Assembly: GCA_902520595.1 (NCBI GenBank)
Contig: CABYOM010000010.1
Location: 1 to 35,446, forward strand
Origin: an uncultured Candidatus Poseidoniales archaeon
Lineage (GTDB): Archaea > Thermoplasmatota > Poseidoniia > Poseidoniales > Poseidoniaceae
Reading direction: 5' to 3'
Length of the DNA: 35,446 nt
A program made the position numbers and the translations under genes. Positions 4,326 to 21,126 of the stretch are shown here, one piece after another. A model generated the notes under the pieces. The model searched no databases. It saw only the letters and a list, made by a program, of their open reading frames with translations, and was not told the DNA's origin. How positions within the stretch are numbered: position 1 is the first letter of the stretch; each line of letters starts with the position of its first letter.

Positions 4326-4775
4326 TCATGGAATCCAAGATGCTGTGCTTTTTGGTGTTTCACGAACATGCATTGCTATGAGTCGAAGCCTATTTCCATA
4401 AGCGGTTGCGATGTGTGGTTCAACTTGCTCAAACGCCCACTTGGCTAGATTTTCTGCGGTTGGAATAAATGGAACGACAACAGTTCTGTGTCCGTCACCC
4501 ATTACCTCACATGCTTTACGTGCTTCTTTGTCACCCTCATAGACAACAAATGCATGATCGACTACATCATGGACATAGGTCATGAGGATGTCACTGACAT
4601 CTGAAAAATCCATGAGCATTCCTTCCTCGCTTACACCCGATTCTTGAACAGTATCGCCTTCGATTTCTGCTTCAAATCGATAGCGATGCCCGTGCATGTG
4701 TCGGCATTTACTCTTATGATTTGGAACACGATGTCCAGTATCAGTTTCTACATACCTGCGTATACGTGTTGTCAT
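4326..4775 (-). CDS. queD: 6-pyruvoyl-tetrahydropterin synthase-like protein QueD (6-carboxy-tetrahydropterin synthase)
   Basis: 149 residues. It converts dihydroneopterin triphosphate to 6-carboxy-tetrahydropterin, the second step of preQ0 synthesis. The zinc ligands are H15, H28 and H30 (CRHMHGHRYRFE); the catalytic Cys is C24. The PTAENLAKWAFE block near residues 105-117 and the late Glu in VRETP are also family features. Its ATG overlaps the queC-msrB stop by 4 nt (ATGA), so it is translationally coupled as the last gene of the operon. Confidence 0.93.
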   Translation of the reverse strand: MTTRIRRYVETDTGHRVPNHKSKCRHMHGHRYRFEAEIEGDTVQESGVSEEGMLMDFSDVSDILMTYVHDVVDHAFVVYEGDKEARKACEVMGDGHRTVVVPFIPTAENLAKWAFEQVEPHIATAYGNRLRLIAMHVRETPKSTASWIP

Positions 4776-5923
4776 TCTTCTCTCTCCTTGAAATCTATTG
4801 ATGCTGAATTAATACAATATCGTTGGCCTCCAAATGCTCTCGGTCCATCATTGAAAATGTGACCAAGGTGAGCGTCGCATTTCGAACAACGAACTTCTAT
4901 TCTTTGCATACCATGGCTGTTATCTTGAACATGTTTTATTCCAGCACGAGGGTGTTCAGTGTGGAATGAAGGCCATCCGCAACCTGAATCGAACTTCATT
5001 TCTGATGTGAATAGAAGATGATTGCAGCAAATGCAATAGTAATTTCCACTTCGCTTTTCATCCCAATATATTCCTGTGAATGCCCTTTCAGTTCCACTTT
5101 CACGAGTAACATAATATTGTTCTTCACTGAGTCTTTGACGGTATTCCTTATCTCTGTGATCCTTTTCAACTTCAAGAGCATTTGACAACACTTCATCCCA
5201 CGAGGTTTGATACTCGACCGGATCTGCGAGGTCAAGCTTGTGGAAAGCAAGGATACGCTCAATATCAGCACCGCTTTTACCCGAACTTCGACCTTCGTTA
5301 TCGGGGTTGTATGAAGTGTTCGTGTTTGCGAAGATCAGGTCAAAATTTAGACCGAGTTTATCCGTTGCATTGAGTGCATCTTTCAGTATTGTGACTTTAT
5401 CTCCTTCCAGATACGGCAATTTGAATCCAACCTTTTCGCTGTCCCAATTTCCAGTTGCAAAAGCATGTTCAATTGCGTTGTAAAATTCTGGCCTGCAGTC
5501 AGGATAGATTTCATGGTCGCCGGAATGAACACCCAATGCAATGTCAACTTGACAATCCTCTCTTGATGCAACAGAGAGCGCATAGCCATACAGTATTGAG
5601 GCAAATATCGCATTCCTGTTGGGAACGACAGTCGCTTTCATCTGCTCCGCTTCATAATGCCCTTCTGGAATCTCTTCTCCACCTTCGATAAGTGCACTCT
5701 CAAAAATGCTCATTGCGCTTGTAAGATCAATTATTCTGTGAGTAACGTGAATATCTTGGGTTTGAAGATATTCAATGTTCAATTGAGCCCGTTCTAGTTC
5801 AATACTGTGCTTTTGACCATACTGATACGACAAACAGTCGACCTTGTAACCATCTGCAAGTAGTCGAGTTAACAATGCGGTTGAATCCATTCCTCCTGAG
5901 AGGGCCATTACTGCGCGTTTCAT
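4772..5923 (-). CDS. queC: QueC (preQ0 synthase) fused to MsrB (methionine-R-sulfoxide reductase)
   Basis: 383 residues with two domains. Residues 1 to about 245 are QueC, the ATP-dependent enzyme that turns 7-carboxy-7-deazaguanine into preQ0: PP-loop ALSGGMDSTALL (7-18), YQYGQKHSIEL (33-43), VPNRNAIFASI (100-110), DPVEYQTSW. The family zinc motif is present as scaffold at 203-223 (TSYNPDNEGR, then SSGKSGADIER), but all four Cys positions are S204, S214, S217 and D220. Residues about 260-380 are a complete MsrB: zinc pairs C297/C300 and C346/C349, CGWPSF at 315-320, catalytic C370 in RYCINSASIDF. The reading frame is continuous, with no stop or frameshift at the joint. It overlaps queE by 1 nt (TAATG) and queD by 4 nt. 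Whether the QueC half is active without zinc is not decidable here; the conserved ATP site and the intact pathway around it favour function. Confidence 0.93.
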   Translation of the reverse strand: MKRAVMALSGGMDSTALLTRLLADGYKVDCLSYQYGQKHSIELERAQLNIEYLQTQDIHVTHRIIDLTSAMSIFESALIEGGEEIPEGHYEAEQMKATVVPNRNAIFASILYGYALSVASREDCQVDIALGVHSGDHEIYPDCRPEFYNAIEHAFATGNWDSEKVGFKLPYLEGDKVTILKDALNATDKLGLNFDLIFANTNTSYNPDNEGRSSGKSGADIERILAFHKLDLADPVEYQTSWDEVLSNALEVEKDHRDKEYRQRLSEEQYYVTRESGTERAFTGIYWDEKRSGNYYCICCNHLLFTSEMKFDSGCGWPSFHTEHPRAGIKHVQDNSHGMQRIEVRCSKCDAHLGHIFNDGPRAFGGQRYCINSASIDFKEREE

Positions 5924-17795: not shown

Positions 17796-17872
17796 GGGCT
17801 CGTGGTCTAGGGGTTTATGACGTCGCCTTGACATGGCGAAGATCGAGAGTTCAATTCTCTCCGAGCCCACCA
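17796..17872 (+). tRNA. tRNA-Val (GAC anticodon)
   Basis: The acceptor stem GGGCTCG/CGAGCCC (17796-17802 and 17862-17868) pairs perfectly. The D arm has a GGGG-rich loop. The anticodon stem TCGCC/GGCGA carries the loop TTGACAT, so the anticodon is GAC and the tRNA reads GUC/GUU valine codons. The T arm is GAGAG-TTCAATT-CTCTC. Discriminator A17869 is followed by an encoded CCA (17870-17872). No intron. T-rich sequence after 17872 (CTCTTTCTTC) may end transcription. Confidence 0.96.
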
Positions 17873-17957: not shown

Positions 17958-18323
17958 TCATTGACTGAGGTCTTCAGGATCAGGGAGATTCAAATCCTCT
18001 GGAACAATGATTGCCAAAGGTTTCTCATCTTCATCATTCATAGTGAAATCCGTTGAACCACCAGACCAGGAAGAAATTTCTTCGCTCTCTTCAAATTCTT
18101 CTTCAGGTATGGCGTGACTGTCTGATAAAGAGTAAACGGAAGGGTCGATAACTTCACGTTCAAGGATTGTACTGGGTGGTGGCGCTGCCCGCTCCTCTAA
18201 GTGAACTCCAGAATGAAACGTCCCACATTCAGAACAGCGAACACTTCCGACCTGTTCTATACAACCGCAAACAGGGCATGAAGCATACCCCTTCAGTGTG
18301 GCTAAAGGGTCACCCTCGGACAA
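17958..18323 (-). CDS. Short zinc-ribbon protein with acidic tail
   Basis: 121 residues from TTG 18323, chosen because GGAGTGA lies 4-7 nt upstream and overlaps the end of the previous gene; the frame is also open to an ATG at 18389 within that gene. After a short lead, a C4 zinc ribbon appears (CPVCGCIEQVGSVRCSECG), then an acidic, low-complexity tail (PEEEFEESEEIS, DEDEKPLAII) without membrane segments. The ribbon has the same short layout as the two ribbons in the large upstream protein, so the pair may share a partner or have arisen from one another. Function unknown. Confidence 0.65.
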   Translation of the reverse strand: MSEGDPLATLKGYASCPVCGCIEQVGSVRCSECGTFHSGVHLEERAAPPPSTILEREVIDPSVYSLSDSHAIPEEEFEESEEISSWSGGSTDFTMNDEDEKPLAIIVPEDLNLPDPEDLSQ

Positions 18324-18327
18324 GGTA

Positions 18328-20154
18328 TCACTCCACGAACATGTCTTCCTGGTATCCAGTAACAAGGTCGCCAGTGCCGTCTTCTTCAATCGTTACTGTT
18401 TCTTCATCATCATCAAATTCGACAATAACTCCGAACACTTCCTCGTCTTCAAAGGTTAGTCCAATGTGTGAGCCAATGTCGATTTCATCAACTTCATCGT
18501 CATCAGAATCATCCTCTTCATCCGACTCTTCATCGTCCATTTCTTCTGAATAGTCTTCAGAATCTTCTTCATCTTCTGATTCCTCTTCATCTGTTTCTGG
18601 TTCGCTGATATCCTCTTCCGCGTCCTCGTCTTCCGACTCTACGGAACGTGCTTCATCAGCATCGTCAACGACTTCTTTCATTGCCTTTGAACGAGCTCGC
18701 CAACCGGGGACGACTACAAAGTGCATAACCATTGAACCTATCATTCCCACAGCACCCAGTGCCATGAAGAGCAAACCATCCCAATAGAATCCAGCAGGCA
18801 TAGAAGTGTCTTCACCAGCTAAGGGTGTAAGGGAATTCTTACACTCTCCAACTTGAATTTCTGCATCACAGGGGTAGATGTCACCTTCTTGCCAATCGAG
18901 GTATCCGAGCTTCGAAGAAGTCTCTAATTCAACATTACCGCCACTGCCATCAACACTGAGTGGACCTATGCCGCCCAAGCCATTGATGACCCAGAGCGCG
19001 ATGAACAGTCCAAATGCGAAGTGGATTAATGGCCAATAAACGTCATTCCATTGCTTGCCCATCATACTGCGCTGCAAATCTGTAGGGAATGTTTTGTCTT
19101 TCTTTTTCGATAGACGTGAATCGTCGTCAATTGCTTCATCAACATCATCTAAGGATTCCAAGGCAGAAACAAATTCTACGATATCAATAGATCCATCGTC
19201 ATCACCATCAGTATTGACCAGGAATGATTCAATGTCTTTCGAGGAGACTCCCCTGTCAATAAGGCTCTCTATCGTCGAAGTAAATTCCTCGACCGAGACA
19301 AAGCCGTTGCCATCCTTGTCAAGGGAATTAAAGAATTTGTTTGGAGAATCACCTTTCTCATCCATAGCATTGGATATAAGTTCCAAAAGGGATTGTGTTT
19401 CGAATTCTTCAACATCAAGATCTTCAATCATGTCATCGAGGTTTTCGATTTCTTCATCCTCTTCTTCAGACTCGTCATCATCGTCTTCGTCATCATCGTC
19501 ATCACCATCGTCTTCGTCATCATCTTCAGACTCGTCATCATCGTCTTCGTCATCATCCTCAGAATCATCGTCTTCGTCATCATCTTCAGACTCGTCATCA
19601 TCGCTTTCATCATCAGATTCTTCTTCGTCAGACTCATCCTCTTCAGAATCTTCTTCAGGAATGGTATCAACATCTTTTGAATCACCATCGGTAGTAAGAC
19701 GCTCACCGGTGATCGTGAAGTGTAATTCTTGGAGGTCAATCAATCCATCACCATCTTCATCGATAGTTTCGATTAATCTTTCAACTTGAGAAGGGGGTAG
19801 GTCTGCTAAATTAAGGCTCAATAACCCCGATTTGAGTTCTGATGAGTCGATACGTCCATCGTCATTCGAATCGAATTTCCTGAAGAGAATTGGAATCGAA
19901 ATTCCAGTTTCGTTCAACCATTTGCGCAGTACTTCAACAACATCATCTGCAACAAATATTGTGCCGCAGTGAATACATTTTGTTGAGTCGAGAGGTACAA
20001 GTCCTCCGCAAGCACCGCACTCACCAAGTGCTTCATCTGATACACCAGAAAACGACACACCACACTCTGCGCAGTTTTCAGAATTTAGCGGAACAATCGC
20101 TCTGCAAGCGCCACATTCAGCCATTGCGATTTCTTCATTCGTCTCTTCGGACAT
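18328..20154 (-). CDS. Membrane protein with two zinc ribbons, four EF-hands and polyacidic linkers
   Basis: 608 residues from ATG 20154, which has AGGTG just upstream (a GTG two codons earlier, at 20160, is the alternative; numbering here counts from it). C4 ribbons lie at about 16-33 (CGACRAIVPLNSENCAECG) and 48-65. EF-hand loops are 97-108 (DSNDDGRIDSSE), 134-145 (DEDGDGLIDLQE), 281-292 (DKDGNGFVSVEE) and 318-329 (DGDDDGSIDIVE), all matching the 12-residue consensus. A polyacidic D/E/S linker (168-238) separates the pairs. Two membrane segments, about 376-395 and 461-485, enclose an external loop with C431 and C440, perhaps a disulfide. A second acidic tail (498-562) and a compact beta-rich end (563-610) follow. 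A calcium-responsive membrane protein is the natural reading; partner and output are unknown. Confidence 0.85.
   Translation of the reverse strand: MSEETNEEIAMAECGACRAIVPLNSENCAECGVSFSGVSDEALGECGACGGLVPLDSTKCIHCGTIFVADDVVEVLRKWLNETGISIPILFRKFDSNDDGRIDSSELKSGLLSLNLADLPPSQVERLIETIDEDGDGLIDLQELHFTITGERLTTDGDSKDVDTIPEEDSEEDESDEEESDDESDDDESEDDDEDDDSEDDDEDDDDESEDDDEDDGDDDDDEDDDDESEEEDEEIENLDDMIEDLDVEEFETQSLLELISNAMDEKGDSPNKFFNSLDKDGNGFVSVEEFTSTIESLIDRGVSSKDIESFLVNTDGDDDGSIDIVEFVSALESLDDVDEAIDDDSRLSKKKDKTFPTDLQRSMMGKQWNDVYWPLIHFAFGLFIALWVINGLGGIGPLSVDGSGGNVELETSSKLGYLDWQEGDIYPCDAEIQVGECKNSLTPLAGEDTSMPAGFYWDGLLFMALGAVGMIGSMVMHFVVVPGWRARSKAMKEVVDDADEARSVESEDEDAEEDISEPETDEEESEDEEDSEDYSEEMDDEESDEEDDSDDDEVDEIDIGSHIGLTFEDEEVFGVIVEFDDDEETVTIEEDGTGDLVTGYQEDMFVE
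19463..19642. repeat. 60-bp tandem repeat inside the EF-hand protein gene
   Basis: The 35-bp block at 19463-19497 recurs identically at 19523-19557, and its first 21 bp again at 19583-19603, a strict 60-bp period. It encodes a 20-residue D/E/S unit (for example, S-E-D-D-D-E at residues 191 and 211). The third unit has diverged. It is coding, not CRISPR. Confidence 0.85.
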
Positions 20155-20186
20155 TTCCACACCTGTTATCCCCAGCGCATCGTCGG

Positions 20187-20193
20187 ATATAAT
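20187..20193. promoter_or_regulatory. Shared, possibly bidirectional TATA element
   Basis: ATATAAT on the plus strand reads ATTATAT on the minus strand. About 26 bp to the left lies the leader of the EF-hand gene, with its AGGTG just inside; about 26 bp to the right lies position 20216, before ATG 20239. One element could serve both divergent genes, with start sites in a gap of only 84 bp. Confidence 0.4.
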
Positions 20194-20238
20194 GATTCAT
20201 AGACTTTGAACGATGAACTCTACTTAACAGGGCGACTC

Positions 20239-21126
20239 ATGAGGGGTGGAATTATCGAAAAAGGTCACATTTACACCACTGATTTTGATTCAGACGAAGA
20301 AGTACTTTCTTGGATTGATCGTCAGAGTCAGATGAAAGAAGAACACATACTGCTTTTTTCGCGTTTACCCCACAGACGCCTCCTCGAGCACATTGACATC
20401 AATGCAGTAGAAGCCTACTGGATTTCAGAAAGAGTAACTGATGGTGCCATTTTACCTGAAATGGATAGGATACTTGAGATCATACTCAATCATCTTTCAA
20501 ACCACACAGGAATCGTCGTTCTCGAAGGCCTTGAATGGCTTGTAACCAAAAACGGCGAGGATGCATCTTTAGCATTTGTTCGCAAACTTAGAGATTCAGT
20601 CCATAGGAGCGCTTGGTCGATTGTTTTACCTATTCGCGCACTCGCTTTTGAATCACTCTGGCTGGCCCGTTTACGGCGTGAAGCTCCATCAATTGAATTG
20701 CCAAAGCCAGAATCTGAATCGGAAATGGTACAATTTGCGGACGATGATAGAGAAAGTGAAGAGGCCGTTAGGGGAGTTAATATTGAACCACTCGAGAAAC
20801 TCCAAGATGGTGCACCGCAATTGATTATCCTGACACGACTACCGCAAGTAGGTTTTACTGAATCGCTGTTGCGAAAGAGAATACTTCAATGGAGGAGGAT
20901 GGGACTTGATGTTTCTGAAGTTGAACCAGCCTTAACAATGGAAAATGAAGATGCTTACGCGCTGTATGCTGCAGTTGAAGAGAAAGTTCGCAGGGCTGTA
21001 GACTTAGAGCGCCATTTGGATCAACTGGCTGGCTCAATATCTGCAACTGATGAGGCGACTTCTCGATTTCGAATCCGTCAATTAACTGGTTTAGATGAGT
21101 TGGAACAACGTTTGTATGGGCTCTAA
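20239..21126 (+). CDS. DUF835-like protein
   Basis: 295 residues from ATG 20239. A TTG at 20206 is also in frame but would lie upstream of the start site predicted from the TATA element at 20187. Residues about 10-155 resemble the DUF835 domain of euryarchaea: GHIYTTDFDSDEE, ILLFSRLPHRRLLEH, a helix (ILEIILNHLSN), the strand GIVVLEGLEWLVTKNG, LAFVRKLRDSVHRSAWSIVLPI and a closing LWLARLRREA. The fold is related to RecA/KaiC-like proteins without a Walker A motif. The second half (about 200-295) is helical and charged. No membrane segment. Divergent from the EF-hand gene; its end overlaps hutH by 4 nt. DUF835 is often found in archaeal signalling proteins; the role here is unknown. Confidence 0.68.
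   Translation: MRGGIIEKGHIYTTDFDSDEEVLSWIDRQSQMKEEHILLFSRLPHRRLLEHIDINAVEAYWISERVTDGAILPEMDRILEIILNHLSNHTGIVVLEGLEWLVTKNGEDASLAFVRKLRDSVHRSAWSIVLPIRALAFESLWLARLRREAPSIELPKPESESEMVQFADDDRESEEAVRGVNIEPLEKLQDGAPQLIILTRLPQVGFTESLLRKRILQWRRMGLDVSEVEPALTMENEDAYALYAAVEEKVRRAVDLERHLDQLAGSISATDEATSRFRIRQLTGLDELEQRLYGL

Follow-up and report, generated by a model that had tools for sequence, protein, structure and literature searches.

Calcium signalling is usually seen as a eukaryotic hallmark, and archaeal cases are poorly known. A locus of Ca. Poseidoniales (Marine Group II) raises the question of what a protein with four canonical EF-hand loops, two zinc ribbons and two putative membrane spans does in an archaeon. 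The window analysed here, the whole 35,446-nt stretch of DNA, is contig 10 of a 1.42-Mb assembly (G000) that is about 70% complete, and the target is the ORF at 18328–20154 on its minus strand, whose homologues align between identical start and stop points. A sequence-only reading had described the EF-hands, the zinc ribbons, one acidic tract and the membrane spans; we find in addition a second acidic tract, a C-terminal domain, an apparent operon and a divergent partner gene. The target and its neighbours comprise the following features:

17958–18323, minus strand: small protein of 121 aa with a zinc ribbon and an acidic tail; TTG start 4 nt past the target stop
18328–20154, minus strand: target, zinc-ribbon/EF-hand membrane protein of 608 aa; ATG at 20154, TGA stop at 18328–18330
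18331–18489, minus strand: conserved C-terminal beta-rich domain, ~50 aa (residues ~556–608); alignment, dN/dS 0.01–0.06, low-confidence four-strand model
18490–18654, minus strand: second acidic tract, residues 501–555, 67% D/E; residue composition
18709–19041, minus strand: TM hairpin with TM1 at ~372–394, a loop with C429 and C438, and TM2 at ~461–482; hydropathy, modelled helices, C429 invariant
19159–19335, minus strand: EF-hand pair 2, loops at residues 279–290 and 316–327; Pfam EF-hand_7, ligands competent in 22/22 homologues
19399–19686, minus strand: acidic D/E/S linker, residues 157–252, 75% D/E; composition, fast evolving
19720–19887, minus strand: EF-hand pair 1, loops at residues 95–106 and 132–143; Pfam EF-hand_7, ligands competent in 22/22 homologues
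19950–20121, minus strand: double zinc ribbon, residues ~12–68; 8 Cys invariant in 22 homologues, dN/dS 0.01–0.05
20155–20205, no strand: short divergent promoter region; conserved ATTATATC TATA-like box, from the upstream DNA of 26 homologues
20206–21126, plus strand: divergently transcribed DUF835 protein; PF05763, E 3.7e-14, 53.1 bits against a cut-off of 33.1

The target contains exactly four strict 12-residue EF loops, starting at residues 95, 132, 279 and 316, with a spacing of 37 residues within either pair and of 135 residues from loop 2 to loop 3. Among 20,000 shuffles of its residues, four such loops never occurred and three occurred once, and Pfam EF-hand_7 matches the protein twice above cut-off (E 1.5e-16). 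Across 22 aligned homologues, with identity down to 31%, the ligand residues at positions 1, 3, 5 and 12 are kept in all four loops of every protein, position 12 being Glu throughout, and Gly6 and the hydrophobic residue at position 8 recur in 16–21 of the 22. All eight zinc cysteines are invariant in the same alignment; the DZR model (PF12773), which describes two CxxC...CxxC knuckles, scores 22.3 bits on the target against a cut-off of 27.3 and matches 18 of the 22 family members (E<0.001). The earlier claims that all four loops have complete ligand positions, that they form two pairs about 135 residues apart with a D/E/S tract between them (residues 157–252, of which 72 of 96 are D or E) and that two zinc ribbons precede them are therefore borne out. 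The conservation of the ligands strongly supports calcium-competent loops that would bind calcium.

Structure prediction, proposed by the sequence-only reading as a check, agrees with this assignment. The full-length model, built from a four-sequence alignment, has a pLDDT of 48 and a pTM of 0.26 and is usable for the EF-hands and TM helices only; it shows helix-loop(strand)-helix pairs at residues 87–149 and 271–341 (pLDDT ~60–80), for which the best Foldseek matches are troponin C and calmodulin. Both the loop pattern of the EF-hand superfamily (ligands 1, 3, 5 and 12; Gly 6; hydrophobic 8) and its paired helix-loop-helix are thus found in the target. Hydropathy confirms two membrane spans after the EF-hands with cysteines (C429, C438) in the loop between them, and the two hydrophobic segments support an association of the target with the membrane. 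The protein is extremely acidic, K and R are few outside the TM flanks, and positive charges lie beside both TM segments on the same side. From these basic flanks and from zinc ribbons of a type that suits the cytosol, both soluble ends would be cytosolic and the Cys-bearing loop external. The C-terminal domain is modelled as four strands at low confidence (pLDDT 51). Its SH3/Tudor-like label, given by pattern alone, stays a guess, because a Foldseek search of the model gave no significant match and profile searches of PDB and Pfam gave nothing convincing.

Calmodulin and troponin C are the best PDB matches in both sequence and fold, and like them the target carries canonical EF loops in two pairs; unlike them, it has these pairs 135 residues apart and combines them in one chain with zinc ribbons, acidic tracts and a TM hairpin. 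Calmodulin is soluble, with four EF-hands and a short central linker, whereas the target would be membrane-anchored. STIM1 and STIM2, the EF-hands of which are luminal, are likewise membrane proteins with an EF pair, and Pfam EF-hand_STIM1 matches 3 of the 22 homologues weakly. STIM combines an EF-SAM unit, a single-pass TM segment and a CRAC-activating coiled coil, whereas the target has two hydrophobic segments in a different TM layout, and a Pfam search detected no SAM domain in it. Calmodulin-like EF fusions of prokaryotes have been described mainly for bacteria, where EF pairs are likewise joined to membrane or enzyme domains such as 7TM and NADPH oxidase; the part of that source considered here describes neither the zinc-ribbon/acidic/TM-hairpin layout nor an archaeal host (PMC7016017). 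The target is a novel architecture assembled from known domains; no NCBIfam model covers it, which speaks against the possibility, raised at the outset, that the same protein is already widely annotated with a known function.

We determined the distribution of the target by family searches of whole genomes, a scan of contigs alone having given 3 relatives. The genomes were grouped into the host's own family (f1), its sister family in the same order (f2) and another family of the class (f3), which we take to be Poseidoniaceae, Thalassarchaeaceae and Marine Group III, respectively. The target is nearly family-wide in f1 (42 of 43 sampled genomes, full-length or as fragments at contig breaks) and patchy in f2 (8/39); it was found in none of the 6 f3 genomes, and the other sampled Thermoplasmatota gave at most isolated EF-hand or zinc-ribbon matches. 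When 293 genomes of the phylum were searched with Pfam EF-hand_7, each of the 43 f1 genomes gave 4–17 matches and each of the 39 f2 genomes 1–13; 4 of the 6 f3 genomes gave one, and 11 of the other 205 genomes had any match at all. EF-hand pairs are expanded in this lineage and rare elsewhere in the phylum. The description of the assembly as unusual in an archaeon therefore stands outside the lineage and fails inside it. Literature searches, directed at EF-hands of Poseidoniales and at archaeal ATP synthase or NuoL with EF-hands, led to one relevant paper, which reports calcium-binding domains in protein-family modules specific to two Poseidoniales subgroups; the target family may be among these modules, and the main text of that paper describes neither an architecture nor a gene context nor EF-hands inserted into bioenergetic proteins (PMC9258230).

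The zinc-ribbon, EF, TM and C-terminal blocks evolve at dN/dS ~0.01–0.19, indicating purifying selection, and the linkers at 0.24–0.7 in most comparisons, with a pair-dependent value of 0.09–0.72 for the second acidic tract. Synonymous sites are saturated in many homologue pairs; the unsaturated pair L016/L011 gives 0.05 for the zinc ribbons, 0.15 and 0.19 for the EF pairs, 0.13 for the TM segments with their loop, 0.035 for the C-terminal domain and 0.39 for the first acidic tract. In some relatives the first acidic linker contains additional EF-hands, a single one and a pair, which suggests that evolution can change the number of Ca2+ sites.

The gene neighbourhood is conserved as well. The divergent DUF835 gene, the target and the small zinc-ribbon gene occur in the same order in 11 of 11 loci with flanks, from both families. 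The zinc-ribbon gene follows the target in every one of these 11 and, where the junctions were compared, begins a few bases past the target stop, an arrangement suggestive of an operon. In the window, the ATTATATC TATA-like box lies some 32 nt upstream of the target ATG. All 8 target-bearing f2 genomes have a DUF835 orthologue, against 0 of the 31 without the target; among these 31, no DUF835 match was better than 1e-7, and the two weak ones fell in much larger ORFs. As the three genes are adjacent, this co-loss may reflect few independent events, at least 2 given that genus g5 is mixed. Galperin and colleagues list DUF835 among the output domains of archaeal response regulators, as an inactivated KaiC-like (iKaiC) domain (PMC5847659). 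A tRNA-Val(GAC) gene (17796–17872, plus strand) adjoins the 3′ end of the small zinc-ribbon gene and is convergent with the operon. Elsewhere in the window, one ORF (4772–5923, minus strand) fuses QueC (7-cyano-7-deazaguanine synthase; below cut-off) to MsrB (methionine sulfoxide reductase B; above cut-off), and it adjoins queE, queD and folE, named by sequence.

The proposal of calcium sensing or buffering at the membrane is partly supported, by the Ca2+ ligands and the two hydrophobic segments, and the sequence as such cannot choose between the two roles. The co-inherited partner of signalling type favours sensing, while the acidic tracts fit buffering. We propose, with a probability of about 0.4, that the target is a Ca2+ sensor or hub confined to Ca. 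Poseidoniales, anchored in the membrane and facing the cytosol, and that it signals via its DUF835 partner. A rise in cytosolic Ca2+ would fill the EF pairs and change the packing of their helices, and this repacking would alter how a partner docks, the likeliest candidate being the DUF835 (inactivated-KaiC) protein. Proteins would dock onto the zinc ribbons and the C-terminal domain; the acidic linkers, disordered-like in sequence, would serve as flexible spacers that also collect Ca2+ near the membrane, and the small Cys-bearing loop as an anchor or as an input from outside. One further membrane protein (L038:8984-11530, G051:C55), otherwise unrelated to the target, appears to have a signal sequence, matches a beta-propeller weakly and contains a TM segment; its C-terminal tail after the TM segment is a zinc ribbon with an EF pair as in the target, and this reuse suggests a regulatory cassette. 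Homologues of Ca2+:cation antiporters (PF01699) are present and make low cytosolic Ca2+ plausible. We rejected their presence as a specific link, PF01699 being common in prokaryotes and found in 11 of 14 controls.

The main rival holds that the target buffers or stores Ca2+ at the inner face of the membrane, in principle as calsequestrin does, with EF-hands of moderate affinity and acidic tracts of high capacity. About 110 D/E in ~150 residues of the two tracts, and an acidity of the linkers that persists despite sequence drift, speak for this role. The same linkers, however, differ widely in length and acidity across homologues (30–75% D/E), the EF ligands are kept far more strictly than bulk buffering demands, and a buffer has no need for two zinc ribbons, a conserved C-terminal domain or a co-inherited DUF835 protein; we consider it unlikely.

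We regard as improbable, too, that the target is a structural scaffold, for example one that holds a membrane assembly, in which permanently Ca2+- or Mg2+-filled EF-hands make calcium a cofactor and no signal. A structural role is assumed for many EF-hands of prokaryotes, and such a scaffold is suited by the modular zinc ribbons and C-terminal domain and by an EF copy number that differs among relatives. The Glu at position 12 is linked to selectivity for Ca2+ over Mg2+, and its retention in all loops of 22/22 homologues argues against a scaffold, as does the signalling type of the partner.

The position of the cluster between hutI and hutH-hutU in most loci examined could point to an accessory of histidine utilisation, either a sensor or a regulator. 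Yet 33 f2 genomes keep hutU, two genes from the target, and 25 of these are without target and DUF835, so that target and DUF835 appear to be inherited together and not just as companions of the hut genes. On this ground we rejected a hut regulator, and since no ligand-binding domain was recognised in the target either, a hut accessory of any kind is very unlikely. A nucleic-acid- or ribosome-associated membrane protein, to which the zinc ribbons and the beta-rich C-terminal domain, SH3-like by pattern only, might point, is the least probable reading, as the extreme acidity disfavours nucleic-acid binding and no significant fold match was obtained.

A sensor of cytosolic calcium would not be the only EF-hand protein of these archaea. 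In genus g1, V-ATPase subunit I (L045:6938-9280, G000:C2; L094; L059) carries a cleanly inserted EF pair with intact calcium ligands within a His/Asp-rich loop directly before the membrane part; in other genera (L061–L065, L068, L071) subunit I has the same loop without the insert. In genus g11, the proton-pumping complex I subunit NuoL (L092, L097, L098, L099) carries, in a His/Asp-rich loop of its own, an EF pair about 55% identical to the V-ATPase pair. At this position of NuoL, one f2 genome (L100, G051) also has an EF pair, a more divergent one; L101–L107 served for comparison. NuoL of g1 lacks the EF pair, which indicates that g1 and g11 put the module into different proton machines. Curated family models confirm the identities of both host proteins, and the literature searched held no description of EF insertions in either. 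Two other proteins with EF-hand matches are (i) a 656-aa multi-TM protein (L088:1012-2976, G003:C8), also found in many f1 genomes, whose sole Pfam family is a C-terminal EF pair of the same subfamily as the V-ATPase and NuoL inserts, and (ii) a protein (L057:4859-6505, G000:C33) with Tudor-knot and other Tudor/agenet-like matches and a weak, apparently degenerate EF pair.

Taken with the proposed sensor, these insertions hint at a calcium control previously undescribed in these archaea. A near-universal, lineage-restricted EF protein with a signalling-type partner provides a testable gene set in very abundant surface-ocean archaea, and the EF pairs in V-ATPase subunit I and NuoL make archaeal calcium regulation a direct biochemical question. 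It is a tentative and still rather doubtful idea that Marine Group II evolved a lineage-specific calcium-control network, in which a mobile EF module serves both in a sensor with an iKaiC partner and in proton machines. If this were true, cytosolic Ca2+ would tune energy conservation in abundant marine archaeal plankton.
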